Part shown: one piece after another, positions 20,851 through 54,745 of the stretch
How positions within the stretch are numbered: position 1 is the first letter of the stretch
Layout: each line of letters opens with the position of its first letter
Assembly (NCBI RefSeq): GCF_040436345.1
Contig: NC_133227.1
Location: 25,418,671-25,482,670 of the forward strand
From: Pagrus major
Lineage: Eukaryota > Chordata > Actinopteri > Spariformes > Sparidae
Length of the DNA: 64,000 nt
Reading direction: 5' to 3'
Position numbers and translations under genes: made by a program
The notes under the pieces: generated by a model
The model's input: only the letters and a program-made list of their open reading frames with translations
Told to the model about the DNA's origin: nothing
Databases searched by the model: none

Positions 20851-20889
20851 GCTAAATTTAAATTCATGTGTTATGAAACCTCCCATGCT

Positions 20890-20896
20890 TATAAAA
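20890..20896 (+). promoter_or_regulatory. TATA box of gene C
   Basis: TATAAAA followed by CCTGAGCTCAGCTTGA, the same block as before gene D, about 150 bases before the start codon. The antisense LINE ends only some 40 bases upstream. Confidence 0.6.
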
Positions 20897-21047
20897 CCTG
20901 AGCTCAGCTTGAGGTGTTATAACCTTGTCACAAAGCCTCAGATCACACTCTTTGTATTGCCTCTCATCCTTGAAGAAGAGTCTGCTCATTGTTCCTCTTT
21001 TCTTTTTTTTTTTTTTAAAAAAAAATATTGATAATTTTGTTGAGGCA

Positions 21048-24000
21048 ATGGGCAACTTAAAAATTAGAGACTATGATGATATTACATCTTTTCTTGGATC
21101 TTGGGGACCCTTTCAGCTAAGGATTTTTTTAGCCCTGGCCATCAGCATCCTCCCGAATGGCTTTGTTGGCACCTATGTAGTATTTGTAAGTGATACCCCA
21201 CCTCACGAGTGCTACGTCCCTGAAAACTACAGCATCAGTGAAATGTGGAGAAATGTGACGATCCCACTGGAGATAGTCGATGGCATTGAAAAGCGCAGCT
21301 CTTGCTCGAGGCTTAACTTGGAAATTGTCAGGAACTACTCGCAGAATGAAATCATCCCAAACGTGGATGTGAATGTGAGTGAAATTCCTTTGGAGAGTTG
21401 TCTGGATGGCTGGAAGTACAGCAAGAAGATCTACCAGTCAACTACTGTCACAGAGGTGAGCGATAAGATATCAATTATCTCCCCTGCAAAATGTTTTCAA
21501 GGTTTCCACAAAGGCCAAACTAAGTCCCAGTGTGCAGGATTCAAGGGGGATCTATTGGAAGAAATTAAATATATTATTATTATTATTATTAATAAGTGTA
21601 TAATTACCTAAATCTAAGTATCTAGGGTTTTTTTTATATTATCATCATTATTGTTTTTTTACCTTTGTGTAATTACCATGTGTAATCGATTTGGAAATAG
21701 TGCACTTATTTACACTTTTTGTTTATTATTCATAACTCTGCTGCAATTACAATAAATACTAAGACGAGTGCTGGTGCTAGACAGTGGATATTGTTACTGT
21801 ATAATATTGATAACTAAAATAGTGAAAAGCAAAATGTGTTGACTTTTCAGTGGGACTTGGTGTGCGAGAACGGATACAAATCTCCACTGGCCACCTCCAT
21901 CCATTATGTTGGTGTGCTAGTAGGAACGTTTCTCTCAGGCCAGATGTCTGACAGGTCTGTATTGTATACATTGTTGTCTTAACCCTCTATGGTACCATGA
22001 ACCCATTTTTGGCCTGTCACATCACCACAATGCATCCCTTTGAAGGATGTAATCCTTTAAAAGAGTGTGAAGACCATAAGGAACCAATAAGGATGCTTTA
22101 ATTTGTCACGTGGCCTTCAGGAAGCCACCTTGAAACCCCTTTTCCCGGACTTTTTCAAAGAAAACAGCTTTGCCATTTTGCTCCTTAAAAGTGGCTGAAA
22201 ACATAATTTCCTGGCCCTTTTCTGTCGTGAAAATAATATATGCACACTCATAGGAGAGAAAACTTTACTACTAATTTAATTGTTCATTAAATAGTGGAAA
22301 CTTGTTAAAATGCAACTGTTGCCTTGAGGCAACAGTGAACCATTATGGAATCACCATGGAAGCATGAAATGTTGGTAGTGTGTGTTTAGGTATATATAAT
22401 ATTCAAAAGCATACCATTCATCATAATCTTTATATTGTATTATTATTATTATTATTATTTGTTATATTTTCCTCCATTTACAGAATGAATTAATGACCAT
22501 TATGGTACAATGTTGCCTACAGGCAATGAACCCCAAAAAATCCCCCCCCCCCCACCCCCCCCCCCAAAAAAAAAAAAAAAAAAAAAAAAATCTATAAAAT
22601 TTCTTTAGATTGTTTATTTAGTCTATTTTAAGACATAAAAACACTAATTTTTTTTCCTATCTCGCATCATAATGCGTACCATAAAGGGTTAAACACTTTG
22701 CTGTTAGGGGTAAAGAAGTCATGTAATTAACTCAACTCCTGTATTTCTTATGCAGATATGGGAGGAGGCCGTCACTGTTTCTCATGATGGTTCTTCAGAC
22801 TGTGGCCATCGCAGCGCAGATATTCTCCCCGAGCTGGGAGGTCTTCAGCGTCATTTTCTTTTTCGTGGGTGCGGGTGGATACTCCAACTGTATCATTGCA
22901 TTTGTGCTGGGTACGTTTTCCAGAAAGGATTTCTAACATGGAGAGTTTGACACTGCTTGATGTGTTTATTATGTCCTTAGAGCCCATCGACCTGAAAACA
23001 GAAAAAAACATCTGTAATATTCTGGTTTGAAACTTAAAGAGTAACTAAACCCCTAGGTTTCGGCTGAGGTGCATCTAGGCTGGAAATTCAAAAAATGCCT
23101 TGATTCTGAGCGGGGCTCCAGGAGCAGTTAAGACATGCCCAGTCACTCTGTGCAGCCTCCAACATTTGTGCACATGAAGCAGTCAGTCAGACTGTTTTTT
23201 TTCATAAATCATCTATTAATTTATCACCTACAGGTACAGAAATTCTAAGCCCAAAAGCTCGAGTGGCCTTCTGCTCCCTTGGGGTTTTTATGGGTTCTGC
23301 TTTGGGGTACATGGCAACGCCACTTGCAGCTTACTTCTTACGTGACTGGCGGTTGCTGCTGATTCCCATGGCTGCCTCTAGTCTGGTCTACGTTCCTCTG
23401 TGGTGGTAAGAATAATTATATATTGTATTTTACACAGCAGCCTTTACATGTTTGGTTTAAGTAAGAATTCTCGTCAGGCAGCACCAGTGCAGACTAATAT
23501 CCCTTAATATTTATTAAAAACAATTGCTGCATCTCTGTGTGAATCTGCTGATAATGTTGTACACTGTGTTTTAACTCTTAAGGTTAGTCCCAGAGTCTCC
23601 TCGCTGGCTGTTTAATCAGGGAAGAGTGGAGGAGGCTGAAGCCATACTGAAAGACGCTGCCAAGGCTAATAAAGTAGAGGTTCCAAAGGCCATTTTTACA
23701 CAAGAGGAGGTAAATGTATCAGCTAGTTTTTATCTATGACATGTAACACAGCACAGCACAACACAACATAAAATAACATAAAAGAACATGACAAAATGAA
23801 ACATAACAATACATAACAAAACACAACATAACAGAACTTAACACAACACAACACAACATAACACAACAAAACACAACATAACAGAACTTAACACAACGCA
23901 ACTTAACACAACGTAGCGTAACATAACACAACAAAACACAACATAACCACGACATAACATGACACGACATGACACAAGACAACACAACAGAACTTTACAC

Positions 24001-27000
24001 AACATAACATAACAACATGACATGATACGACATAACGTAATTTAACGTAACACAACATAACATGCCAACATGAGATCCTAAAATGATTAATTAATTAATA
24101 TAGCTTTAAAACCATTTGTCCTTTTGTAGCAGTGTTCGTGTTGTATTGACTCACTGTTGCCCTATTTTTGAGTCGGCACAACAATTAGCGCAAGCAGCAC
24201 TCAGACTAAAAGCAAACATTTTAATACATGGAAAGAGTCTACATACAGTTTATTTGACAATACATGGCAATATATTGTCATTTTGCGTCAATAATTCAGT
24301 ACAAAATATAATGAATGCACATTTGATAATACATTGGCAATATAAACTGAATTAATTTCTACACTATTTGAAAAACCGCAATAATTGGTGTATTTCTTTA
24401 TTTCATTATTCAATAATATATTGCAAGTAAATTAAATAGATATATTTCAATAAATATGAAATATTAAAATACTAGCCTGTGTAAATCTTTCACATTATAA
24501 TATGTAATTACAAGGTGAAAATATTAAAATAACACTGTTTAATTGACATAAGTAATGAAAAAAAACCTTCTGCTGTATAAGCTTCTTGTTCAGGTAATCA
24601 AAAGATGTTTTATTATTTATTATTTCTATCATCGTTGTACAAATTCAATAAAAATCAACTCATGTTCCAATCAATCAATCCAATTCCATGTTCCCCTTGT
24701 CTTTGGCAGGGCTCGTGTTTTATTTAACTCTTACAACTGTTTTTTATCTTGGTTTTCACAGATTGAAGATGCACTCACTATGAAAGAAACGAAATACAAC
24801 ATCTTAGCTATCCTGAGCAACTGCAATGTCTTGTCTGTTACATTGCTGTGTTCACTTCTGTGGTACGTCTACAATTTCCTCACAACATACAGTGATTCCT
24901 GTACACCGAAAGTTGATTAAATCAATAATGGTCACACTTCAAACCTTCCTTCACAGCTCATGCCCAAATTTAAAAAACTGTTGGTTATAAAAGATAGTCA
25001 CACCTAAAAATTGTTGTTTCCCCTCTTATTTGTATTCACTTCATTGTTTTGAATGTCTCTGCAGGATCATCATCACCATTAGTTACTACGCTTTGCTCCT
25101 CAATACTTCAAACCTGCATGGCGACCCTTACGTAAACTGCTTCCTGTCTGCTGTGACCGAAGTGCCGGCTTACATTATTGCCTTGATACTGCTGCAGTAC
25201 TGCTCCAGGCGCTTCTGCCAATCGTCCACACTCTTCCTTGGAGGCGTTATGATCTTCTGTGTTCACCTCATCCCAATAGGTACAGCTGAAATTGTTACAC
25301 CTCGTTGTAGGTAGTTGAACCCAAAAGCGGACAATGAGGCAGAGAGTAGTGTGCAAGGTGATTTATTTGACTTCACAAGGTATCTTGCCGGTGAAGGTGG
25401 GGAGAGACTCAGGCTGAGTCTCCGTCCGGGCGGTGGAAGGAGGAGGAGAGGTGGCTCATGTTGGTGCTGGTGGTTAGCGTGGCGAGTAGGGACTCGGGTG
25501 AGCACAGGGCAAGGCTGCAGAGGTGCAGAGAGCTGGGTTGCTGGAAGTGGAGCCACTGGTAGCTGGATATGCTGGTGAACACTGGAGGTACAGCAAAGAA
25601 ATGTTAGATCTCCTGAAGAAAGCACAAAAACAAAAGTAGTTACACTAGAAGGCGATATAGCCAGAGCCATGTACCACGTCTGACTGATGAAATCATCTGG
25701 CAGCAGGTAGCGTGAAGACCAGAGCTTATCAGCAGGTGCTGATTGCCAACCTGCCGCAGGTGCGTGTGTGTCAGCAGCTCCGGTGAATGGAAAGCTCCGC
25801 CAAGCCTCTCAGTGCACCTCTGCAAGCACAACAGAAAACAAAACACAAAAATCCACCACAGAATTATGAATTATGACTGTGAAAGAAATGCTTTAGCTCA
25901 TCACCTAGACAGGAACAGTTAACGTAAGATGGATTCATATTGTTACCAAAACTGTAACAAGTTGAAGAGTCTACAGCCATGTCAGCTCTGTGAGGCTGTA
26001 CTTAGGCAAAGTGATGCTGTGAGCTAAATGCTAACGTCAGCATACAAACTCAGCATCCATGCTCGCAGGTATATCGGTTCACCATCTTATTTTAGTGTTT
26101 AATGGACTTTACATTTTTTTAATTTGACTTTCTTTTTCTATGCTATAATCAAAGTTATTATTTTTTTATTTCCTCAGGTCTACCGGCTGTGTCTGTGTTT
26201 CTCGAGATGTTGGGGAAATGCGGCATGACGTCTTCATTTTGTATTGTGTATGCCGTTTCATCAGAGCTCTTCCCCACTGTTATCAGAAATACAGCAATGG
26301 GATGTTGTTCCATGGCTGCTCGTATTGGGACCATCATCTCCCCCTTCATTGTCTATCTGAGTAAGTATATTTATTTGTATTTCTTTCTATTTTGAACTTA
26401 AAGCTGGTGATAAGGTTTGTTTCTTTGACCGAAATAGCTGCAGTTGTAACAATTTCTGCAGAGCTGCAATAATTAGTCAATGTCAGTCAAGCAACAGAAA
26501 ATTAATCAACAACTATTTTGATAATCATTTAATTACTTCATTCATTTTTCAAGCAGAAATGCAAATTTTCTCTGGTTCCAGCTTCTTAGATGTGACAATA
26601 AGCTGTTCAATCAGGTGTCAGTTTTCCTCATTTATGTTTTCTCTTCCCTTCTTGTGGTGTTTTTGGCTTCTTTTTGCAGGACAATACTACAAGGCACTTC
26701 CATACATATTGATGGGAAGTTTGGCCATTTCTGGTGCCGTCTTATGTTTCCTGCTGCCAGAAACCTATAGGAAGCCTTTGCCAGAGACCATACCACAAAT
26801 GCAGCAGATATGTGGGTGAGTTTACACACTGAGGCAGGCTAAGAAACTGAACTCAATGACATGTCTGTCTATCTGTCTACCGATCAATCTCCTCCGCTCT
26901 GTTTTGGTGCTATGGACACAGCGTGCACCTACACACGCATCCTAAAGTAGCCGTACTCATTTGGCCATTTTAAAGCACAAACGTAATCATGTGCTAAAAA

Positions 27001-28966: not shown

Positions 28967-30007
28967 AAGGCATAAAATCTGTCCACTGGAGAACGTGCCC
29001 GGAACATGTGTAAGTAAGTGCCAGTCGCTTTCATACGACATAGGTAGGGTCAGCAATCATTTACATCCACTATTGCCAAACTGTGGCATGAGTACCACTG
29101 GTGGTATGGAGGCTCCCTCTAGAGGTAGGGAGAGGAGCTCCAGATGTGCTTTTGAAAAAGTGAAAATGAATTCAAAAACATACAGTTATTACTCTCAAAA
29201 TATTGCAACATTTCCAATTAGAACGCTTAAATTGAATTGTTATTTTTATAAATAGGTTTTCATTTTTTGTTTCAGCTTGATACATGGTCATGCTCATGCA
29301 CGTGCCACTCGGCCACGTTATAAACTCAAACTCAGATGGCAAAATACTAAAGTGAGGTAAAATGAAAGGTTTTTTTTAAAAAAACTACAAAAGTGACTCC
29401 AAATGCAAACTATCTGAAGGAGACTGAATGCAAAGCAGGTTGATAGAAAACGTCTAAATCTGAAAAGAATAAACCTGAGAGCATTTTGTAGCAGAACAAA
29501 TTGTGCATGCACTAAAGTTGGGGAGTGAAAGTGAGTCTTTTATTGGAGTCTAATTAAAATGTTAAGAAGTTCAGAAAGTACAGAGTACACTTAACAGTTT
29601 TGTTGCTTTGATACTGGTTACAAAGAAGCCATGTGTTTACGAATAAACTGCCAGTAACACCGGCTCAAGCCTCGACGTCTTCTTTATCCTATCTTTAAAC
29701 CCTTTGTCAAGAAAAATAAAACAACTCAAGCATACTGATAGGCTTCATTAATGTTTCACCTCTGCTTGTAAAATGATTAACTCTCTTTCCAAGGATTCCT
29801 GGAATGATGTTTCCTTTTACAACACGTTACACAAGGACTATTTTTCTCTTATTTCTCTAGTTTTATAGAAAACATCTAAATCTATGAAGTACATATATTT
29901 GAAAGCTCTTTGCAACACATCAAATTGTGCATAAGCTAAAGAGGGAGTTATACTATTTTTCCAGAGCGCTCTACGGTGTGAACTGTAGTTGTGTAACCTC
30001 CCAGGCA
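28967..30007. other. Gene C-D intergenic region and upstream flank of gene D
   Basis: No gene seen. From about 29570 it matches the interrupted flank of gene C (18025-18560, then 20855 on), including CCTGGAATGATGTTTCC. A TATAAAA box at 30008-30014 lies 143 bases before the gene D start. Confidence 0.65.
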
Positions 30008-30150
30008 TATAAAACCTGAACTCAGCTTGATGGCTCATAATCCTGACAGAGCAGTAGACCACACTCTCTTTTGTGCCTCTCAGTGTTGAAGAAGTGTCTG
30101 CTTATTGTTCCTCCTTTCTTTTTTTAAATATTGAGGATTTTGATGAGGCA

Positions 30151-33100
30151 ATGGGCAACTTAAAAATTAGAGACTATGACAGCATTACATCTTTTCTTGG
30201 ATCTTGGGGACCCTTTCAGCTAAGGATTTTTTTAGCCCTGGCCATCAGTATCTTTCCGAATGGGTTTATTGGCATCTACATAGTATTTGTTGCCGATACG
30301 CCACCTCACGAGTGCTACATCCCTGAAAACTACAGCATCAATGAAATGTGGAGAAATGTGACGATCCCACTGGAGATAGTCGATGGCATTGAAAAGCGCA
30401 GCTCTTGCTCGAGGCTCAACCTGGAAATTGTCAGGAACTACTCGCAGAATGAAATCATCCCAAATGTGGATGTGAATGTGAGTGAAATTCCTTTGGAGAG
30501 TTGTCTGGATGGCTGGAAGTACAGCAAGAAGATCTACCAGTCAACTATTGTCACAGAGGTGAGCGATTTTTTTATTTATAATAAATCACCTTGAATCTTG
30601 AACAATGAGGTCTGAACGATATCTTTACTTTTACTCAAGTATGACTTTGGGTCAAACTGACCCTAAGGCCAAACTGTCATTGTTTAATGATACACGCTTG
30701 TTTATGGTTGCTTCCCTGTAAATATTGTAACAGGCTGGGTGACACGTTTGTGTTTAACTGTTCTGTTATGAGTGTGATAAGAGTGATAAGATACAGGAGT
30801 TCAGCCAAGGTAAAACTGTTTATTGCAGTTCCTGGGATTTCTAGGATGTCAGTGAAGCTTAGAAGCTTTCAAGCCTGTTAGTCATTACAGTTATCTACGT
30901 GTGAAATAGCTTACGTAAGTTTGGGGGGGAAGTTTGTTGTTGTTCCTTCTAGTTGGGGATTGAAAGTGAGACTATAGTGAGACTGTAGCAAAATCTGTCT
31001 GAGAGTGCAGTTAGACTGAGTGAGAAAGTATGGCCTCGTTTTATTTCTGCAGCTCTGACAATTAGATCAGATTTCATGCAATGCTAAGTTTGAAGGCATA
31101 CAGAATAAGGCCTGTACTAATCATGTCTTCCTCTCGTTTGTATAAATTTGTTCTCACAAGTCACATCTATGTACATGCTGACTGTCTGCCTTGTAAGCTT
31201 GGGCTGGGCATGATGCAAGATACAACATTAATATCAGACCTACTTGCGTGTTACAGTGTTACAGTCCCTATCATGATGGGAAACAACAACAACAGTCCCC
31301 CAGCTAGCATCCTATACGCTGAAAATAAGATTTTACCCTAACCCTAACCTAACCGCTCTAGTAATGTTTATGCCAGGGCCTGCCTCCTCACGTGCAAAAC
31401 AAGTTCCCCGCTACACTATCTTGCAGGGGCATGGTTGCTGCGTCCTGGGTTTAGTGCTGCCCAGTTTGACTGTGATTGATTTAAAGAAACAAGCCAGAGC
31501 ATTTTTTACCCCAGTACCAAAATTAATATTGGTGCAGGCAAACCTTTCTCCAGCGCAGACAGCACTGACCAGACTTTGGATACTGTTAGTTAAATAAAAT
31601 TGATAAAGTGATTTTAACAGCTTCAGTTTGTGATTTAGCTTTCACTTCTATCTCACACGAGAGATCTGTGTGAGATAAAAGTTGCTACTTTTTAATTTTC
31701 AAAATGTGTTGATTTTGCAGTGGGACCTGGTGTGTGAGAACGCATACAAAATTCCACTGACCACCTCCATCCATTACATTGGTGTGCTAGTAGGAGCGTT
31801 TCTCTCTGGCCAGATGTCTGACAGGTACTGTACCGTACTCATGATTGTCCAAACATTTTTAGAGAACATTTTCATCACTTACTCAGCTGCAAACTGTATT
31901 TCTTACACAGATATGGGAGGAGGCCGGCTCTCTTTCTCATGATGGTTCTTCAGACTGTGTCCATCACAGCGCAGATATTCTCCCCGAGCTGGGAGATCTT
32001 CACCCTCCTTTTCTTCTTCGCGGGTGCAGGAGGATTCTCCAACTATACCATTGCATTTGTGCTGGGTATGTTTTCCATCAAGCACTTGTGTTTGCTTTGA
32101 CAGTGGCATATGGTTGCATATGATCATAAACTCTTCCTCTTAGTCACTTATCTCACATGAAATTTGCCTGGTCAGAACTGACTGAAGCACCAAGAAAGTC
32201 TCAGATTTATTCTGCTAAATTTAAATTTATCTCACTTACAGGGACAGAAACTCTCAGCCCAAAAGCCCGATTGGTCTTCTGCTCCCTTGGGGTGTTTATG
32301 AGCTCTGCTGTGGGGTACATGGTAATGCCAGGTGTGGCTTACTTCCTCCGTGAATGGTGGTTGCTGCTGATTCCCATGGCTGCCATTGGCCTAATTTACA
32401 TTCCTTTATGGTGGTAAGAATATGCATGCATCATATTTCAGCTTGCCCTCACACAGCAACATTTATAAATTTGGTTTACCACACATATTTTTGTTACCTT
32501 GCACTGTTTTTCTTCACGTATTGACCTATAACCTCACAGTTTATTACACCTTTAAGCACTGTGAATTATGACCTGGCCTAAGTGTGAACTGTTTGACTTA
32601 CTTTTGAACGCGGACCTCGCTGATATATCGGAAAAATGTTTGTCCCGTTGCTTATCGGGTGTTGTGGGTACATCCAAGGCCATCTGGCCATCTGGCTATT
32701 GTTTTGTGAAATCTCCCGTTCTCAAGGTATCTCTGAGTGTTGTCTGTGACTCACTGTCGGTCTCTGCCAGAATTGCCTGGTGGATGAGGCTGACCTTTCA
32801 GCTGAAATGGGTTAACTCTGCTTACTCTTTGCTTTTGCCACTTTATTAAATTACACAAAGACAACCTTGTGTGAATCATTCTATTATATTGAGGTGTTTA
32901 ACTTTGTGGGTTATTGTGATGACGTTTAAAAAATTTATACTGCCAGAAGAAATGTCAAGAAAGTGGCACATCAGAATACATTTCTTTGTTCCTGGAAAAA
33001 GCTGGTGCTGGACTCCAGATGACATAATGTCTGTGCTCATTAATCCAGTCTGCAACATTTGCGCAGCAGTTTCTATTTTGCTTGGCCCATGTAGGACTGA

Positions 33101-36100
33101 CTTTACTGGAGCAAAGCTTAGGAACGCTTAGCTCTCAGCTGCTCTTTAATGAGAGAGTCCCAAACTGGGTGAATACTTCTGTAGAGCAGAGTTTTATGAA
33201 ATGAAAAGCCTCTTCCATATTGTTTACGGTCCATAAAGGTAAGCAGTGTTTCCCACACAGACACAGAATAGACTTTACTTGGGTCTTCCTCCACACGTGG
33301 CTCACCTTACTTCAATTCCACCAGCATGTCGGTAGTTTGGTGCACTTAGTCCTGCATGTCTGTGTGAATCTTCTGACAGCGTTGTACCCTGTGTTTTAAC
33401 TCTCCAGGTTACTCCCAGAGTCTCCTCGCTGGCTGCTCTCTCAGGGAAGAGTGAAGGAGGCTGAAGCCCTACTGAGAAACGCTGCCAAACTGAACAACAT
33501 CAAGGCTCCACAGGACATTTTTACACCAGCTGAGGTAAGTTTTGTCAGCTAGTTTTTATTTTTCTCATGTGATAAACATAAACTACACGTGCCTCAGCAG
33601 TTGTTTTTTTAAGTTTGACATGAAACTCAACATTTTCAAGTCATTTAAAGCAGTGTTCGGGCTCACTTTTACATTTCAGGTTACCCTGTTTTTGTTAGGT
33701 GACTCATTATACCATGCAGGATCCTATTTTTATGGTGGGACAAAGACCAGAATAAGCCATGTCCGAACGCTTTGTCCGTCCGTGTTGTCATCAGTCCTGT
33801 GTGTCATTACCCTTCTTAACAAACTGTCTTCATAGCAAAAGTGGTGTTTCGTGTTTTATTCTTAAAATGCAGTACGCTACAAATGCTGTTGTGTCACAAT
33901 TTAAGACCAGATGTGACAAGTTACGATGTCAGATACAGTCAAATTCATTACATTTTCCCGTTATGTCTAAGTGATCTATACGGCTGTATGAATAATCCAT
34001 GTCTACGACAACACGCTATGTGTTTGGGAGGGCTTGTGTTTCATTTCTACAGATTCAGGACCGGACCTTTTTAGGTTTAATTGTTGAACTTGTTCTTGTT
34101 TTTCCCAGATTGAAGATGCACTGGCTCTGAAAGACAAGAAATACAACATTTCAGCTATCCTGAGCAGCTGCAGTGTCCTCTCTGTTACAGCACTGTGTTC
34201 TTTTCTGTGGTGAGTCTCACCTTCCTTCCCAAATTAGAATAAAAAATTTGATTTAGCTTTTGGTGTTTCCCATCCCATGTGTATTCATGTGTTGTTTGAA
34301 TGTCTCTGCAGGGTCGTCATCACCATTAGTTACTACGCTTTGATCCTCAACACATCAAACCTGCACGGCGACCCTTACATAAACTGCTTCCTGTCTGCTC
34401 TGACCGAAGTGCCAGCTTACCTTATTGCCTTGTTACTGCTGCAGTACTGCTCCAGGCGCTTCTGCCAGTCGTCCACACTCTTCCTTGGAGGCGTTATGAT
34501 CCTCTGTGTGCACCTCATCCCAATGGGTAAAACTCAAAACCTTTAGCTCCTAAAGCATATTGATTTCAGCTCTGATTTAGCCACATTAGCAGCTCTGTAA
34601 GGCTGTACTTAGGCAGAGTTGTGCTTTGACCTAAATGCTAATACAACAAATATATGGTAATTCGTGATGAACGCAAAGGCCCAAACATGACCATTAATGT
34701 TGCTCCAGGACCATCATTGCAGCTGACCAAGCATGTTTTTCCAATATCATAGCTTTGCAAGTGGGAGGAGTCATCCTTTGTGGTTAATGTTGTTGAAAGG
34801 GTCTATTTTAACCCAAAGTGTCTTATCCGAAACCTCACCAATGGTTTAGTGGTTTATGGTTTAGTTTTGTGTAAAACTGCTCCATGAACTACGTCATCTG
34901 TACAAGAGCAAAGAAAATCACAACAAGTCTGACAGCTGCAGCGAAAGGAAGGTTAGGGACCGGCGTTTCAAGGTTTTGTTTCTGGGCTTTGGTGAGTGTT
35001 AAACACGACAACACCACCCAGTGGTTCACTTCGTTAGATGCTGAGACATTTCACTCAAAACAATAAATGTGAACCTCAAGAGGGCTCTGGATGAAAAGTC
35101 AGAGGATTCATCCTCTGGGAACCATGATTGTCTGTACAAAATCTCTCGGCATTCCATCAATAGTTATATTTCTTAGTCTTCATCAAAGTGGTGAACTGAC
35201 TTACCGCTAAAAATTTATTTTGAGAATTGGTCTATTTTCACTCCTTTAATGGACTTTTTGGATATTTTATGTGACTCTCATTTGACTTTTAAGTGTTTGC
35301 TGTAATTAAGGCTATTTTTTTTTTATAATTTCCTTAGCTTTACCTGGTGTGGCTGTGTTCCTTGAGATGGTGGGGAAGTTTGGTGTCACATCTTCATTTT
35401 GTGTGGTGTATGCCGTTTCATCAGAGCTCTTCCCCACTGTTATCAGAAACACGGCGATGGGATGTTGTTCCATGGCCGCTCGACTTGGAACCATCATCTC
35501 CCCTTTCATCATTTATCTGGGTAGGTTTATATTTATTTTTCTATTTTGAGCATTTAGAAAGCGACAAAGGAATAACTTTTCAATAAGGCATAATATCTGT
35601 GAGTTTTTTTCTCCTTCAAAATGGTGACTTCAGGACAGGTGTCGGTCAATTTATGTCTTCTCTTCACTTCTCATGGTGTTTTTGTCTTCTTTTGCAGGAC
35701 AATACTACAAGGCACTCCCATACATATTGATGGGAAGCTTAGCCATTTGTGGTGCCATCTCTAGTCTCGTGCTGCCAGAAACTTATGGAAAGCCTTTGCC
35801 AGAAACCATACCACAAATGCAGCAGATATGTGGGTGAGTTTTGCACGCTGGACATACGTGTACTGCATGATCACCGGACACTGTTTCACAACCAGCACAG
35901 ATGCAGCCACTGCAAAGATCACAGCTTTATGTTTGGCTGCTAGTTAGAATAAAATGTCTGTCAACCAGGTGCACCAGTGACCAATCCTTCTTCCACTATT
36001 ATAAGATCAAAAATTAAGAGAAACAAGACGCCATCTTGCAATAGGGTCCCACCTGCCGCAACGCCAAATCGGTGTGTATGGTGCAAGGAAGTTATGAATC

Positions 36101-37856: not shown

Positions 37857-40800
37857 TCAGAACACAATGGAGTACTGAAGGCTCTCACAGAACTCGTTTG
37901 TGGGATCTGGGAAGAAAATGTATGAAGATATGTGGGTTAAACTTTAATACTAAACATTTAATACTACATTTCAAAAAGTGGCATTTCTTGAAGGTGCAGT
38001 CTGACACGAGCTTTGAGAAAATAACTGATGATGTCATAATGATGTAAGCAGAGTCAGGGACACAAAATGAAATATTTTGTGTGGCACTGAATCATAGTGC
38101 AAGTTAGAAATTATGATGTTCTGGACCGACCCTTAAGGAAATAACTGGACTTTTAAATGTTTTTTCCTCCCTCTGAGTACCACCAGAAAATAATCCCTGT
38201 ACAAACACACATGTACAGTCTGAACCCATCGGCTAACAACTTTTACCTGAGGTAGATTCCCAGCATCTGGTGGCTGGAGGGGTGCATGCTTCATCGATCG
38301 GGAACCTCTTGACCTCCGCCGCTAAACTTCCAAGACCCATGTTTTCCATCAGTTGATGGATAATCTGAAAGAGCAACACTGGACTGAGTATGGCGATTAT
38401 AACTTGCACAACTGGAGTTTTCCAACACCAGTCTTTACCAATCAAACATCTGATTTGGCCGTTATTACGCAAGCCAAACAGGCAGGATAAGACAAACATG
38501 CATGCTGTTTTGGGGAGGAGCCAATGAGGAGGCGATGCTTACCTCAGCGAACTCTGGAAGATCACAGCAAAGACAGAGGGCGAGAAAGGGGAGGAGGCAT
38601 GAGTACGGCACTGTGATATCAATATATCTGTTTGTGTTTACTCAATTTCACCTCATCCTGAACCATTTATTAGCAAGTATGACTTGATTTATTTACTAAA
38701 TCATGATATAATATAGGAGACAACAAGCACAGAATGTAATTAATTAATTAACTGCAGTTTGCATGTATAATTACACTTCACTTCACCTCTTCGATATTTC
38801 CGATCCAACAGAAGTTCATCCCCGTAGTATGAAGCTAAACGCCTCAGATGCATTAGGCGCATCATCACATCCTGTCAAATATAAAAAGGAAAACTGAGTT
38901 GTAAAGATGGCGACCGCAACATAATGCATCATAGAAAAAAACAAAGTATGAGCCTAAATTTTGAAATATTGCATGAAGCATCACACTGAGTATCTAACTT
39001 ATAGATTGTCGTTAACAGTTTTCTATTTCATGGCCTCAAGTTATGTAAAAAAATATTTGGATAAGTATATATACAGTATATATACTGTATAATAAACTGT
39101 TATCCAAATATTTTTGAGGAGGCGATGCTTACCTTGCTCATTAGACCTGGAAGATCACAGCACAGAGAGAGGGAGAGAAAAGGGAGGATGCATGAGTACA
39201 GCACTGTGATATCAATATATCTGTTTGTGTTACTTCATCTCACTTCATCCTGAACCATTTATTAGCAAGTATGACCTGTGTGTTTGAGTAAATTGTACTT
39301 TTCAGGGTAATTTTAATGCAGAAAACTTTTACTGGAGTAGATTTTTTGAGAAAAATCATTACTTATACTCAGTTACAAGTTTACAGTTACAGTTTCAAAC
39401 TTGGCTCCTCTTGCTGGTTTCTAGGATCTTCCCAACTCCAGCTTTAATAGGCAACACATGATAAAACAATTTGACACAACAGAAACTGTCTTTTATGACT
39501 ATGCATTCCACTGCTGATTTATTTGCCAAATCATAATATAATATAGGAGGTAACAAGCAAAGAATGTATTTAATTAATTAATTAATTAATTGCAGTTTGA
39601 ATGTATAATCACACTTGCACACCTCCGTGATTTGTTCACTATAACATAAGTTCATTGTCATGCAACATCCTACCGTGTTGAAGTGAACGCCTCAGATCCA
39701 TTAGGAATACCTCCATTTCCTGTCAAATATAAAAAGGAAAACTAAGTTGGAAAGATGGTGGCTGCAATATAATGCAACACAGAAAAAACTAAATATGAAG
39801 CATCACACTGAGTATCTAACTTATAGATTGTTGTTAACAGTTTTCTATTTCGTGGCCTTAAGTTATGTAAAAACAAAATATTTGGATAACAGTTTATTAT
39901 ACAGTATATATACAGTATATAGACTCAGAGTTTATTTTAAAATGCATGCTGTTAAGAGTAGGAGCCAACGAGGAGGCGATGCTTACCCCAGTAATAACCC
40001 AACCTGGAAGATCACAGCACAGAGAGAGGGAGAGAAAAGGGAGGATGCATGAGTACGGCACTGCGATATCAATATATCTGTTTATGTTACTTCATCTCAC
40101 TTCATCCTGAACCATTTATTAGCAAGTATGACCTGCGTGTTTGAGTAAATTGTACTTTTCAGGGTAATTTTAATGCAGAAAACTTTTACTTTTACTCAGT
40201 TACAAGTTCAGTTTAAAACGTCCTCTTGCTGGTTTCTACAATCTTACCAACTCCAGCTTTAATAGGCAATAAATGATCAAACAATTTGACACAACAGAAA
40301 CTGTCTATTATGAATATGCATACATATGCCAAATCATAATATAAAATAACAACAAGCAAAGAATGTCATTAATTAATTAATTGTAGTTTGCATGTATAAT
40401 CACACTTGCTCACTTCTCTGAATTGCCCACTCCATCAACAGATGTCCATCCTTCCCCGACATCCTGCCGTATCGAGCTGCATTCCTCAGAGCCGTTAGGA
40501 ACATCATCACATCCTGTAAAATATAAAAAAGGAAAACTGAGTTGGAGAGAGGGTGGCCGCAACATAATTCATCATAGAATAAACCAAAATATGAGCCTAA
40601 ATTTTGATATATTGCATGAAGCATCACATTGAGTATCTAACTTGTAGACTGCTCTTAACGGTTTTCTATTTCGTGGCCTTCAGTTATGTAAAAATGTATT
40701 TGGATAACAGTTTATTACATAGTTTATATACAGTATATAGACTCTAACTATGTAACAAATATCACTAAAGTCAAAGTAAAAGTAGAATGACAAGAAAACT

Positions 40801-42630
40801 CCAAAACAAAAACAAAAACAAAAACTCTTGACATGTTTTTGGCATCAAGGTTTCATCAGGGAGTTTGTTTTTACAGGTCTAAAATTACAATGACCATTTT
40901 GTGTCCACATAAATACAAAGGGCACTAACAAACTCAGTTTGAGTCCACTAAGTGCTCCTACTCTTACATTTGTTGATAAAAAATATCTATTGTAGTTACC
41001 TCCTTCATCGTCCTGGTTTCCTCTTCTTCGCTTTGTTCAACTGTGCAGATGAAAAAAAGACATTTTGATCACTTGAAAATCTCAAACAGCTCATTGTGAT
41101 TGCAGAACAGAGTGGATCAGCAGCTGCTCACTTCCTGTCAGTAGCTTTTTCATGCAGCACACTTACTCTTCCTTAGATTTTTTTTGTTGTTGAGAAAAAT
41201 CATTACTTTTAATCTTTACTTATAGTAGAATATAATATTAATGCAATATTTATACAGGTTATCTAATCAGGAGATAATGACTTGTCATCCGATCATAAAT
41301 AAATACAGCTGTGTGTTTACTTCTTCTTCTACTTCCCAGACATATCCACATCAGATAAAAGACAGCACAGATAGTATGCGGGTGTTGCTTTTTCTTTTTT
41401 AAAAAAAAATTTCTTAAGTTATTCATTATTCAAGTGACATTTTCAGTAAATACTTTTGTACTCTAACTCGAATAGTGATTTTGAGCACTACTTTTACTTC
41501 TACTGGAGGACTTTGAGTTCAGTACTTACACAACTCCATCGCCCTGCGGAACATGGCTTTCCATACATTTGGGTCATCTGCAGAATACATCTTTATCAGT
41601 TTCACACTTTCACACCTCAAGTTTCTGAGATATTATTTGCAGAGGTTGCATGTATATATTCACACTTTTCTCACCTGCGTGGCGGGGGGACAGATATTTG
41701 TCCAGGTCATGTTGAACACGCCACAAAGCACCTGGGAACCACTGTAAAATACAGAAGAAGACCGTGGGTGGCTGCACATTCAACGTAGATTAAATAGAGG
41801 CTGCCATTCAAACTGAGTATCTAACTTGTAGAAATACAAAAAAACCCCGGCTCTAAATGATTTTGTCTAAGTCTCCTGCACTTTAAGTTATCGTCCTTGT
41901 TGCTCAAGCTCTTATGGTTTACATTTTGTCATATTGTCAACCCCCCAAAATGTTGAAGTCTTATTTATGTTGTGTTGTTTTGCTTCTGTCTTAACTTTTC
42001 CACTGATTTTGTTTTGTCACACAATGCAGATGATTCATATACGAGCTACTGTTGTAACTTGAGTCTTTAAACTGATCTGTTTCAATAAAGATGAAGAAAT
42101 CAAAATATCTTTGTATGTATGGAAATTATCTCGCATTAATGGACGGTCCTGCTGACGTCATTTTGGATATGTTGGCAAGATGGCTCCAGCCAGCAGGCCA
42201 GGCACCAGCTGCGTCTTAAAGGGATATGCACGGATGCATCAAATACAAAGGCCTTAAAGTAGCGAGATGAATGTTTCCAAACAACGGAGTAAAAGCACAT
42301 TTTACTCAAAAACTACCCACCTGCATCGATGCCCTTTCCGGAAACATTTCTAGCCCTCCTGTCTCTTCTCCGTCATCTTCCCTGCTGCACTTCTACGATA
42401 CAAGAGTTAAAAAAAAAGTCAGTTTTTCCTCTGTTGCATCATATGTTAAAAAAGTTCCACTGTAGGCATGCTGAGCAAAAACCACACAAACTCTACCATC
42501 TGAAACATTTAAAGCACCACATTGTGTTAGACACTCCTAACAGCTTTTAAAATGTTCAAGTATGAAGGAATTTCCTTCAAGCAATAAATCAATACAGGAT
42601 AAAATTACTTACGGATACTGTATTCCCCAT
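37857..42630 (-). CDS. Novel irf1-derived gene with multiplied exon 3/exon 8 pairs and no intact DNA-binding domain
   Basis: Predicted - strand coding exons in order: 42630-42613 (MGNTVS), 41741-41675 (exon 3-like), 41577-41530 (exon 4-like, DPNVWKAMFRRAMEL), 41040-41000 (exon 5-like, 41 bases as in irf1, ETRTMKE against QTKTMKK), 40513-40414 (exon 3-like, 100 bases as in irf1), 40003-39987 (exon 8-like), an optional pair 39719-39623 / 39146-39133, 38871-38787 (exon 3-like), 38553-38543 (exon 8-like), 38364-38247 (exon 9-like, IIHQLMEN...DEACTPP against ICQQLEKD...NEACTSP) and 37906-37857 (exon 10-like, DPTNEFCESL against [11 protein letters not shown], then stop). Exon phases agree with irf1 at the matching junctions, and flanking introns still align. 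Without the optional pair the product is 184 aa. The Trp cluster is mostly lost: irf1 W34 and W42 correspond to Leu and Arg, H36 to Asn. DNA binding is therefore unlikely. Expression is not proven. Confidence 0.72.
39049..39115. repeat. Hairpin-forming AT inverted repeat
   Basis: Perfect 15-base arms (AAAAATATTTGGATA and its complement) enclose a second palindrome TACAGTATATATACTGTA. Only this one of the three paralogous introns has both arms. Confidence 0.75.
41440..41529. repeat. AAGTA-rich interspersed repeat truncating the exon 4 copy
   Basis: TTACTTCTACTGGAGGACTTTG-like text of the family also seen near 39300, 45470, 46660, 58795 and 61960. It abuts the exon 4-like exon exactly where irf1 similarity stops, and its antisense strand supplies the GTAAGTACTG splice donor. 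Confidence 0.55.
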
Positions 42631-42763: not shown

Positions 42764-42808
42764 GGAATTTCCGGCTGAGGGGAGGAGCAAATACATTTTT
42801 TTTATATA
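42764..42808 (-). promoter_or_regulatory. Candidate promoter of the irf1-derived gene: TATA box and kappaB-like site
   Basis: On the - strand TATATAAA (42808-42801) lies about 170 bases before the MGNTVS start. Some 30 bases further downstream is the palindromic-type kappaB sequence GGAAATTCC (42772-42764). The start codon context CATCATGG has A at -3 and G at +4. Motifs only; no expression evidence. Confidence 0.4.
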
Positions 42809-42899: not shown

Positions 42900-43438
42900 A
42901 GTACTCTTTAGGACAAATTATATATGCAAAATAAAAGTAAAAATAAAAATAAAACCAGATAGCACAGACACTTTCACTCTGGAATCTCCTCCTGAATTAT
43001 ACACAGATTTTTAGATACTACATTAACCTTTATGTCATGTGTAGCCAGCCAGTAAAAGGGCTTCATGTAAACCTGCTATGATCAAGTCGTATGCAGTCAA
43101 TTGTGCCACTGTTCTGGTCCATTCTTCATGAGGGGGTGGGCATTTTCTCCTCTCCTCCAGTGCCAAAAATAAGTAAATATACTACTCAATGACATGATAA
43201 TGCAGAAATATTTAGACGTATAGGCTGTAGAGATAATCAAATGCATTTTATTGTTGTTGCTGTCTATCAGTGGCTCATATTTGCCTTGCAGTCTCTCCAG
43301 AGGGTGGAGATTTGGATTCAGCCCAATGCTCCCCTGGTCCAGGAGCTCCCAGTCCAAACCGCTAGCTGCACGGCTAACTGAGCTAACTAGATAAGGGTTA
43401 GTGACAGTTAGCGCTTAGCGGTCTATCTGGTGTTATGT
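42900..43438. other. Intergenic, no gene seen
   Basis: AT-rich sequence between the irf1-derived gene's upstream region and the palindromic element. Short frames only. Confidence 0.6.
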
Positions 43439-43439
43439 A

Positions 43440-43686
43440 CGGAAGCCAAGAACGGCCATGGATTTTTCTTCTTTTTATGCACCGTTTTCTCGTGATAACA
43501 AGTTATCTCGTTATCTCGATATAACAAAGATTGTTTTCTCGTGATAACAAATTAATTTATTTCATTATCTTGATATAACAAAGAGAAAAAAAACTTTGTT
43601 ATATCGAGATAACGATATAATAAGTTGTTATCACGAGATAACAGTGCATAAAAAGAAGAAAAATCCATGGCCGTTCTCGGCTTCCG
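43440..43686. mobile_element. Near-palindromic foldback miniature element with TA flanks
   Basis: 247-base element whose halves are inverted copies: CGGAAGCCAAGAACGGCCAT on the left, complement at the right end with one mismatch in that stretch. The interior consists of TCTCGTGATAACAAG and TTATCTCGATATAAC arms. TA on both sides (43438-43439 and 43687-43688) fits a Tc1/mariner-type target duplication. No coding capacity. Confidence 0.75.
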
Positions 43687-44149
43687 TAGTTATGCATCGC
43701 TGCCCCCTATTTTCTTTGAGCGTGAATTCTTACATAATGTGTCTTTAACGTCTGTGTTACTGTGTAGAGTCATGTCATTTATTTATTCAGGTCAAGTGGA
43801 ACAAGGAAGCAAAGCCAGAGGTGTTAGACAGAGACGTGTGGGCAGCCTGCAAGATGGTTTCACTTGTACATCTTTTCATTTTTAGGATTGTTTTAAAAAA
43901 AAGTTTGAATGGCTATAAAAAGCAGCAGTAAATTACGTGGCACACGTTTGACTACTTTCATGTTTGCTGTAAATATTTAGGGGGAAGTCCCCAAAGAAGA
44001 CAGGCCAGCTGTTTCATTTCACCTTCACCTCAGATCCTCTCAACACCCTTTAAAATGCAGACATACGGAATCTCTGCGTTATTTCTCTGGTTAAAAGTAA
44101 GTCCTGTGTCATTTTAGTAAACACACAGGCTGAAGACAGCAGCTGCTGG

Positions 44150-51807: not shown

Positions 51808-54745
51808 TCAGTGGAAGGGCGGGAGCTGTTGGCAAAAGTTGTTCCAGAATTCATCTTTGGTAGGGTCTGAGCCCAAAGTGTGATACTGCGGCATTTCGTC
51901 TAGTTCGTCGGCTGCAAAGCAAACAGAGGAAATCCAAGGTCAGGGTGGTGATGAAGAGCACGCATGAACTGAACTTCAATACTAAACATCTTGAAAAGTG
52001 AGCTAAAGTCTGAGAAAATAATGACGTAATGGTGATGTCAGCAGGGTCATCTCGGACCCAGTGTTTGAGGTGAGCGTTAACTGGCTTTTAAGTTGCATTA
52101 TGGGAAAAGTAGGATCCAGTGTTTTTGCACCCTTAAAAGGGACTAAAAGTCAGGATATCTCAGCCTCTGCTGCATCAACTTTGACTTGGTGGTAGCTATT
52201 GTTAGCTGTTACGAAGTTGATACGCTGTTTGTTTTGAGTATGAATGCGACAGGTGGCTGATTCTCACACACTGCACCTTTAAGGTGTAATATTTTGGCAT
52301 GCATATGTCTGTAACTTCACTTTGCAGCCTGAGTGAAAACAACATTTACCTGAGTAAGAGTCACTCCACTGGCTCCCTGGGCTGGTGCATGCTTCATTGC
52401 TCAGGAACCCCGTGCCGTCTAAACTGCATGATGTCATCCAGTGTGAGTCTTTCTCCAGTTGCTGGCAAATCTGAAAGAGCAACACTGGACTTAGTATGGC
52501 CAAAATATTCTACACAACTGGAATTTTTTTCAACATCAGAAAGGCAGAATATGACAAACATGGGTATTCCTGCCAATAAAAAATGCATGCTGTTAAGAGT
52601 AGGAGCCAATAAGGAGGTGATGCTTACCTGGATAATGTTGTCGGTTTCGTCGTCGAAATCTGGAAGATCACAGCAAAGAGAGAGGGAGACAAAAGGGAGG
52701 AGGATGAGCACGGCTCGATGGTATCGATATATCTGTTTGTATTTACCCTAATTTCACTTCATCCTGAACCATTTATTAGCAAGTATGCCGTGTGTGTTGT
52801 TGTCTTACCGGGGCTGTGTTCAGGTGAAACTTCAAATCTGTGGAAGAAGGTCTGGTTTGGAAAGCTTGATCCCCCGATCTCAACTGACATAGACCAGTCG
52901 GGGAATTCAGACGGAGCCACAAATGAGAAATCTGCAAAAATGGCGAACAATGGCATTCAATACACTGCAACCAAACATTCAGCACATTTAGCTCGTTTTG
53001 CTAGTGGTGGAATGGTAAGCTAACTGTAGCTTACACAGCTTGCATACAACTTTATCTCGGGGCTCCGCATTTATGCCGTCTACTGACCAAAATCCGAGGT
53101 ATTTCCAAACGGGGCTTTTAAGGTTGCTTGGAGTCCAAACCGCTCTCTCTGCTGCCGAGTTGGGCTCTGAACTTTCTGCCGATTCGTTTTTCTCTCTGCC
53201 ATCTGCATCTGCCACGGTTTTTGTCGCGTCTCACTTTCAGCGGTGCGTGACGCTGTGCAAGTGACCTGTCCCTGACCCATCATGCAGTGCGCCCACTCGC
53301 AAAGCAGCCGCTGATGTGTTTTTTTCCACAGTCGAATATTAATTTTCACAATCGAATCTCCGTTTTTTTTAAATAATCGAATATATATATTCGAATTTAG
53401 AATATTCGTTGACAACCCTACAAAGGACAAAGCATTTCCTCTTCACGTTATCTGTTTTTCCTCACCTTCCTCCTCGGTGTTCACTGCGCTGTCGACCGTG
53501 TTCTCCTGAGCGGAGGAAGTGTCCTCCGGATTTGACTCGTCTATGTCACTGTCCTCTTCCTCTATCTTGACAATTGAGCCCTGCAGATGCAGATACAAAG
53601 ACACGTTCGGTAAATAAATCAAACACCATTTAAGTCAACATAAAAAGTAGAATGGTCATTATTTACCTTCTTCATTGTCTTGGTTTGCTCTGCTTTGCCC
53701 CGTTTATCTGTGCAGGTGAAAAAAAAGACATTTGGTCAACATCTTAAACAGTTTTTTGTGTTTGCAGAACAAACTGAGCACAGATGAAAAAAAAAGATCA
53801 GCAGCAGCGTTAATTCAAGCTCTGCCTACTTCCTGTCAGTTCACTCACCTCTAGATTTTGGTGTGGATGGCAACAACCTGAAGACGCGCATGGCTTGGTG
53901 GCCCTTGTTGATGCTCTCGTCTTTCACCTCCTCGACATCCGGCAGCGAGTTCATTGCGCAACGGAAGTTGGCTTTCCACGTCTTTGGGTCACAGGTCTGA
54001 CCTTCCACGTACTTCCCTGCAAAAAAAAACAACAACATTTTGTTTACACCTTTTTCCATCCAAACAACAAGAAGAAATTCCTGCTTCTGTTCACAGTAAG
54101 CGTGCATGTTCAAGCTCCCTCACCTGTGTGGATGGCCCACAACTTAAACAGACTTGCGTCCTTGGCCAGTTCCCAGCCGTGTCGGGCTGCATGCTTCCAG
54201 GGGATTGAGAACATCATCTTTTCCTATAAAATACAAAAAGGAAGACTGAGTTGGAGGGTGGCTGCACGTTCGACTTGAATTAAATCAAAATACGAGCATT
54301 ATTTTTTAAATATTGCAGGAGGCTGCCATTCAAACTGAGCATCTAATTATAGTTTCATGTTAAAGTATGTAAAAATGTTATTTGCATAGCACGGTGGCAG
54401 TGCCCGCAGTGGAAAAAACACACACAAAACAAGCTTATAGGTTATTTATATATGATGGTTTGTCTTTTTTCCTGCACAACACCAAAATCCAACTTTCAAA
54501 CAAGCGACTCTAAAGGTAACATGCAGGTGTTATGTCTTCGTTAAAGAGAGACAACTAAAACATAAAAAAAGACACGTGCAGCCTTCACTTCCCTGTCTAC
54601 TAAACTTCTTCAGTAAATGTCGTTAACAAGAACTAATCAAGTCTGTTGCAGCAGGAAATGAGCTTCTCACCTTGTCCACCCAGCTCAGACCCGGGACGTC
54701 GTTCGACTCGATCATCTTCTCCAGCCATGGCCTCATCCTGGACAT
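51808..54745 (-). CDS. irf1: Interferon regulatory factor 1
   Basis: Nuclear transcription factor of the interferon response. Coding exons on the - strand: 54745-54671, 54223-54124, 54016-53849, 53707-53667, 53580-53466, 52931-52809, 52659-52628, 52470-52350, 51911-51808; all GT-AG and in phase, 292 aa. The N-terminal DNA-binding domain has the five-tryptophan repeat (W7, W22, W34, W42, W54), the loop histidine H36 within [11 protein letters not shown], and the recognition-helix region [15 protein letters not shown] with R77 and C78. This is almost the human IRF1 motif, shifted by four residues. A basic stretch ([18 protein letters not shown]) follows, then an acidic mid-region and a C-terminal activation/enhancer-like tail ending CQQLPPFH. 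The start [13 protein letters not shown] was chosen for its match to the family N-terminus. The 5' UTR exon is not located. Teleosts have irf1 paralogues (irf1a/irf11, irf1b); OCTN linkage favours the irf1 syntenic copy. Confidence 0.95.
52998..53419 (-). mobile_element. hAT-type transposon 5' fragment with BED zinc finger, in irf1 intron 6
   Basis: The - strand frame 53215-52988 encodes a ZBED-like N-terminus ([14 protein letters not shown], then [17 protein letters not shown]). The start carries the terminal text TAGGGTTGTCAACGAATATT typical of hAT ends, followed by TCGAATATATAT repeats. The coding part stops after the first zinc-finger residues, so the finger lacks its final ligand and no transposase core remains. 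Confidence 0.75.

Follow-up and report, generated by a model that had tools for sequence, protein, structure and literature searches.

The window analysed here is a gap-free stretch of 64,000 nucleotides (nt) from Pagrus major (contig NC_133227.1, C13 in our searches, positions 25418671 to 25482670; the genome searched comprises 785,883,843 bases in 25 contigs). Within and just beyond it lie three irf1-derived genes in a tandem row, all on the minus strand: irf1-A, irf1-B, and the gene studied here, referred to below as the derived gene (Table 1). We consider it probable, from its predicted structure and the divergence of its exons, that the derived gene encodes a translated, non-DNA-binding protein of irf1 ancestry whose repeated modules have been under intense diversifying selection. 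The original prediction placed an intact gene on the minus strand, starting at 42630 and ending at 37857. Both ends are right, and the predicted exons join in phase at GT-AG borders in an open frame. Its proposal that the gene was born by tandem duplication of irf1 is supported by sequence homology and by the position beside irf1-A and irf1-B. The irf1 gene that it took for the neighboring parent, however, is itself a recent duplicate (irf1-B), and the intact irf1-A is just outside the window.

Table 1. Coordinates of the irf1-derived genes and of the predicted exons of the derived gene (window positions unless stated otherwise)
Feature	Position	Strand	Description
irf1-A	C13:25496145-25499078 (window coordinates ~80408-77475, 13-16 kb outside the window)	-	intact; starts MPVTRMRMRPW
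irf1-B	51808..54745	-	intact recent irf1 duplicate, the irf1 of the original prediction; used as control
Derived gene	42630-37857	-	start codon at 42630, stop ending at 37857
E1	42613..42630	-	start codon exon, MGNTVS; apparently from the irf1 leader exon
Ex2	42321..42392	-	optional 24-codon exon (KCSREDDG...), phase 0-0, GT-AG; skipping possible
E3a	41675..41741	-	exon-3 copy with 33 nt less than in irf1; phase fits
E4	41530..41577	-	shortened exon 4 (DDPNVWKAMFRRAMEL)
E5	41000..41040	-	length equal to irf1 exon 5
E3-E8 array	38490..40760	-	tandem units U1 (40760-39940), U2 (39945-39090), and U3 (39095-38490)
E3b	40414..40513	-	exon-3 copy, full length, unit U1
E8a	39987..40003	-	mini-exon, unit U1
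E3c	39674..39719	-	exon-3 copy in unit U2; uses a new internal donor or is skipped
E8b	39133..39146	-	mini-exon, unit U2
E3d	38787..38871	-	exon-3 copy in unit U3, shortened by 15 nt
E8c	38543..38553	-	mini-exon, unit U3
E9	38247..38364	-	copy of exon 9
E10	37857..37906	-	final exon, containing the TGA stop; length 54 nt below that of irf1 exon 10

The exons of the derived gene are arranged in the order E1 - (Ex2) - E3a - E4 - E5 - [E3b - E8a] - [E3c - E8b] - [E3d - E8c] - E9 - E10. All predicted introns are GT-AG and all phases match, whether the gene is read with Ex2 (13 exons, 228 codons plus stop) or without it (12 exons, 204 codons plus stop). In the shorter version (615 nt), frame 0 contains the terminal stop only, the other frames contain 17 and 7 stops, and none of 5000 mononucleotide shuffles stayed open. 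An ATTAAA motif occurs 151 nt downstream of the stop. Homology to irf1 was established by blastn and alignment for exons 3, 5, and 9 together with their flanking sequence, by alignment and a 13-residue match for exon 4, and by the flanking introns for exon 8, which itself fails to align; the intron upstream of E3a matches irf1 intron 2. The matches to these exons in the original prediction therefore stand, whereas exon 10 is linked to irf1 only by its position and a short DPT.EF likeness. Exons 2 (with the RPW motif), 6, and 7 of irf1 are gone.

The exon written as a single descendant of irf1 exon 3 in the original prediction is one of four (41741, 40513, 39719, and 38871), accompanied by three copies of exon 8 (40003, 39146, and 38553), because an internal E3-E8 unit has been triplicated; exons 4 and 5 lie ahead of the 40513 exon. 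As cut here, U1, U2, and U3 are 821, 856, and 606 nt long, and each contains one exon-3 and one exon-8 copy. Because every unit is entered and left in phase 0, the frame would survive the gain, loss, or skipping of units. Relative to irf1, length changes in E3a (-33), E3b (0), E3d (-15), E5 (0), and E9 (-3) are all multiples of three, as are those in the three E8 copies (-15, -18, and -21 versus irf1-B; -12, -15, and -18 versus irf1-A). The changes in E4 (-120) and E10 (-54) are also multiples of three, with the caveat that the E4 donor is new and the position of the E10 acceptor is ambiguous: the alignment puts the acceptors in register, and the DPT.EF likeness would put it inside irf1 exon 10.

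When the three units are aligned, the introns are alike right up to the splice sites and the exons diverge at once. Intron differences per unit pair amount to 44/577, 47/419, and 37/397 sites (7.6%, 11.2%, and 9.3%), compared with 34/97, 25/85, and 32/85 (35.1%, 29.4%, and 37.6%) in E3 and 7/14, 5/11, and 8/11 in E8 (Fisher test of E3 plus E8 versus introns, P = 4.5e-14, 4.5e-6, and 1.3e-12; for U2 the E3 count covers the whole homologous stretch, including the part past the short donor). The most divergent exon-sized windows within the introns reach 0.18, 0.17, and 0.15 at most. When neutral change was simulated at the intron rate, none of 5000 replicates reached the least observed exon divergence (0.294), the maximum being 0.17. 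The intact irf1 copies show the opposite contrast, with 21 differences in 875 aligned exon sites and 106 in 1871 intron sites (P = 8.4e-5; the E5 and E6 borders used in this comparison are one or two bases off).

The excess of nonsynonymous change is confined to the true reading frame. The ratio of nonsynonymous to synonymous divergence (dN/dS) is 4.19, 9.00, and 4.36 for the E3 copies (dS 0.05 to 0.14, dN 0.48 to 0.61); synonymous sites have thus diverged to about the level of the introns, and nonsynonymous sites far beyond it. In the wrong frames, all six comparisons gave ratios of 0.23 to 1.09. Variable columns number 19, 14, and 6 at the first, second, and third codon positions, and the first 15 gap-free codons hold 0 to 0.5 synonymous and 11 to 14.5 nonsynonymous differences per pair. 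Maximum-likelihood (ML) codon models estimate omega, the modelled dN/dS, at 11.3 for the three copies (P = 9.8e-5) and at 13.0 for E3b and E3d alone (P = 1.6e-3). In a branch model that includes irf1-A and irf1-B, omega is 0.34 on the irf1 branches (a value based on very few changes), 0.96 on the stem, and 15.5 in the array; the array value differs from 1 (P = 2.3e-5), and three omegas fit better than one (P = 0.0085). Control values for the first 138 codons of the neighboring slc22a5-like pair are dS 0.153, dN 0.034, and dN/dS 0.22. The claim of an intact gene is accordingly strengthened beyond an open frame and splice sites.

Several observations weigh against this reading or restrict its strength. 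The selection tests use 25 to 33 codons of three paralogous exons, and the P values are therefore not independent; the codon models were purpose-written. The ML fit to the 15 gap-free codons (P = 2.8e-4) has its parameter at the bound, and adding irf1 as a third sequence with one omega throughout lowers the estimate to 2.30 (P = 0.06). A Fisher test on rounded synonymous and nonsynonymous counts, which is a weaker test, gives P = 0.025, 0.0096, and 0.042, and only one of the three pairs shows significantly few third-position changes (P = 0.28, 0.008, and 0.17). The pattern would be one of relaxation rather than selection on the stem leading from irf1 to the array and in E9 and E5, where dN/dS versus irf1-A is 0.63/0.48 and 0.36/0.38. 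Across the whole coding sequence, irf1-A and irf1-B differ by 17 nonsynonymous and 4 synonymous changes, so that dN is about equal to dS between them as well. E3c contains in-frame TAG TGA ahead of the homologous donor (39622), and an earlier donor or skipping of the exon is therefore needed to keep the frame; open, phase-1 donors occur at 39673 (CACG|gtagga, the better choice, 51 nt upstream of 39622) and at 39688. Finally, intron divergence from irf1-A is uneven (8 to 11% before E8 and 26 to 35% before E3).

The stops in E3c, the omega near 1 on the stem, and the similar dN and dS of E9 and E5 are what would be expected of a decaying pseudogene, perhaps transcribed, with an open frame and splice sites kept by chance. 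We regard this as very unlikely. A plain pseudogene should not look like this, because neutral change at the intron rate never produced the observed divergence and would not be expected to yield an excess of dN (here, a dN/dS of 4 to 9) specific to the true frame, nor the exon-intron contrast. All seven pairwise exon indels are multiples of three, compared with 2 of 18 in introns (the pairs overlap, so these counts are not independent), and this too speaks against decay, as does the failure of shuffled sequences to stay open.

The uneven intron divergence suggests some gene conversion in the introns, and a 189-nt block shared by U1 and U2 is 98% identical. It could be argued from this, and from the low divergence from irf1-A before E8, that conversion homogenized the introns and synonymous sites while the exons escaped, with no adaptive divergence at all. 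Conversion may keep introns alike, yet by itself it cannot raise dN over dS; it would even out nonsynonymous and synonymous exon sites together, a poor fit to the distribution of variable columns over codon positions. For the exons to escape, converted versions would have to be selected against, and this amounts once more to selection for difference. We therefore consider an explanation by conversion alone to be highly improbable. False duplication by the assembly is also unlikely, because the copies differ by 5.7% (irf1-A versus irf1-B introns) and by 8 to 11% (units), which is probably more than two haplotypes would.

The origin of the first exon could be traced. E1 and the following intron align to a 5' stretch of irf1-A that lies 0.75 kb ahead of the coding start of that gene (score 86, versus a maximum of 41 in 300 dinucleotide shuffles), with the gtaagt donors in register. 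Exon 1 of irf1 is untranslated, and the irf1-A stretch is taken as this leader exon on that account and because of its donor and a TATA motif upstream (81342); the derived gene has a TATA motif at 42808. At the start codon, irf1-A has ATCATAG and the derived gene has ATCATGG. From this and the alignment it appears that the derived gene inherited the irf1 leader exon, within which a new start codon arose. The original prediction held that exon 2 had been replaced by a six-codon exon; exon 2 is indeed lost, but the six-codon exon descends from the leader and was not brought in from elsewhere. Ex2 was considered as a descendant of irf1 exon 2 and rejected (score 20, versus a shuffle mean of 20.4). 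The region further upstream of E1 resembles irf1-A weakly (score 46, versus a maximum of 42 in 100 shuffles). A search for the leader-exon stretch upstream of irf1-B (63900-54900) found nothing above shuffles (20 each); the irf1-B coding start is 12 nt shorter than that of irf1-A (MSRMRPW versus MPVTRMRMRPW).

Other features were noted in this upstream region. A kappa-B-like site, GGAAATTCC, is predicted from sequence at 42772, near the predicted transcription start, and two more candidate matches occur within 2 kb upstream. At 43438-43688, two 69-nt arms that are 94% complementary form a long inverted repeat, which looks like a small mobile element.

The original prediction also held that the product does not bind DNA in the manner of IRF proteins, and this is supported. 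No Pfam family, PF00605 (the IRF domain) included, matched the 228-residue product at E<=10 in a search whose HMMER filters discard most matches above 0.1; irf1-B matches PF00605 at 2.8e-38, and its DNA-binding part matches 1if1, a solved IRF1 structure that we take to be mouse IRF1, at 2.4e-51. Among PDB sequences, IRF chains (1if1, IRF2, and others) match the product at E values of 0.018 to 0.044 only, over residues 45 to 83, which include the exon-4 remnant. The best PDB match, a designed pentatricopeptide repeat (PPR) protein at 6.2e-6, was rejected as compositional, since no single stretch passes alone; Pfam and PDB sequence searches thus gave no fold. In the 40513-40414 exon (E3b), the substitutions described in the original prediction (W to L, K to R, H to N, and W to R; the last Trp unchanged) are present as claimed, so that loop Trp and His residues are lost. 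The Trp residues encoded by exon 2 were lost together with it, the two that follow have become L and R in E3b, and the final one is kept; we assume that these are counted among the conserved Trp residues of the family. The family is characterized by five such residues (PMC6332930), a complement that the derived gene lacks, although its descent from an IRF gene is clear.

Searches of the genome's own sequence, in which only the best candidates are scored, found the gene at this locus and not elsewhere. The product gave eight matches at E<=10, all at its own locus. U2 gave 50 listed matches (from the best 40 of 117 candidates), seven of them at the locus (array, irf1-A, and irf1-B); the other 43 all fall within query bases 356-477 or 569-666 and therefore represent dispersed repeats in the intron. 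Among the matches listed, the E3-E8 unit is matched at length only at its own locus, and E1-Ex2 matched itself and, within query bases 1-57, two short stretches. A scan of the product against viral contigs, likewise scoring the best candidates, found no match. Among the matches listed from the open-licence literature, no title or abstract start describes an irf1-derived fish gene without a DNA-binding domain.

We propose the following route. Translation would begin at the start codon in the former leader exon, before the place of the missing exon 2. Also visible in the sequence are the loss of exons 6 and 7 and the triplication of the internal E3-E8 unit, after which the repeated exons diverged by amino acid while the introns and synonymous sites stayed similar and the GT-AG borders and frame were kept. 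The product, of about 204 to 228 residues, would be unable to bind interferon response elements. The exon-3 modules are fragments of the IRF fold, and several such short modules may form surfaces that contact a fast-changing partner. This would most likely be a pathogen factor, because the gene derives from an immune regulator and has kept its leader exon. The start of E1 (MGNTVS) fits the N-myristoylation consensus MGXXXS/T (PMC4736023) as a predicted motif, and is suggestive of membrane anchoring; that Ser6/Thr6 is described in the same source as neither sufficient nor critical for myristoylation speaks against it. More tentatively, the irf1 duplicate may have become a membrane-anchored modular recognition protein, in which the start gained in the leader supplanted the DNA-binding one and a piece of the DNA-binding domain became a tandem module, with module copies driven apart by an arms race and frame-neutral gain, loss, and skipping of units. 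The modules might form helical repeats; the helical moment is higher at the starts of E3b (0.51) and E3c (0.45) than in irf1-A (0.30), and E3d (0.28) does not share this, so that the measure is a weak one and is not used as proof.

Two other roles were weighed. An interferon-pathway modulator that does not bind DNA and competes for IRF1 partners through the retained 3' exons would agree with the irf1 origin and with the retention of an exon 9 copy and a terminal exon at the exon 10 position, and there is a precedent in the viral IRFs of Kaposi's sarcoma-associated herpesvirus (KSHV), which are reported to act on cellular IRFs and p300 (PMC6332930). We think this unlikely, as 41% of the E9 sites differ from irf1-A and the dN excess is seen on the exon-3 copies and not on E9, whereas a dominant negative that binds IRF1 partners should be conserved. 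The diversifying selection may also be real and arise from a conflict that does not involve pathogens (e.g., reproductive or intragenomic), since the sequence data point to no particular partner. The immune-regulator origin and the leader exon would favor an immune setting, and we give this alternative a similarly low probability.

The derived gene shares with irf1 (irf1/irf1b of fish) its exons, introns, leader exon, and position, which identify the parent gene, but it has no PF00605 match, lacks exons 2, 6, and 7, and contains a multiplied exon 3 with copies under apparent diversifying selection. Fish irf11 (irf1a) is likewise an additional gene of the IRF1 group, and PMC7915476 describes it as an old separate gene with no gene neighborhood in common with irf1. 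In contrast, the derived gene sits in the irf1 neighborhood itself, as a local tandem derivative without the DNA-binding domain beside irf1-A and irf1-B. DNA binding by irf11 is reportedly named in the title of one study. The KSHV viral IRFs have lost Trp residues, and we know of no exon array like that of the derived gene among them. The resemblance is that of IRF homologues with a modulating effect on cellular IRFs (PMC6332930); the difference is that they are viral and not host genes. A further parallel is offered by the three-finger toxin genes of snake venoms, in which, according to PMC2711939, exon segments change drastically, intron segments are >85% similar, and nonsynonymous change commonly exceeds synonymous change. 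The array shows the same acceleration of exons over introns, with dN above dS; the toxins are unrelated secreted proteins, whereas the units here are exons in one intracellular, transcription-factor-lineage gene. IRF1 is a conserved immune regulator, as the match of the irf1-B DNA-binding part to the solved structure still shows. If our interpretation is true, a host-encoded IRF derivative that has abandoned DNA binding and evolves as described for venom genes would clearly exemplify a regulator turned into something else, and the successive changes (leader ATG, exon loss, unit triplication, and exon divergence) can still be read at one locus. The three exon copies with similar introns provide a built-in neutral yardstick and a simple test bed.

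Minor observations concern the surroundings. Both irf1-A and irf1-B have reading frames open from start to stop. Upstream of irf1-B (55434-54946) are short irf1 intron pieces and an exon 6 end in scrambled order, perhaps remnants of a further irf1 copy; one piece (55367-55290) is 98.7% like 53501-53424. A stretch of ~0.2 kb flanks irf1-B on both sides (50277-50066 and 55669-55442, 87% alike), and these two copies are the only ones that the own-genome search returned. For the open reading stretches at 49156-48884 and 48045-47755, between irf1-B and the derived gene, Pfam gave no convincing match. On the plus strand, a tandem pair at 20870-26823 and 29988-35841, for which we keep the slc22a5-like label of the original prediction (the first 138 codons have no Pfam match), is 79 to 90% identical over 10 blocks.

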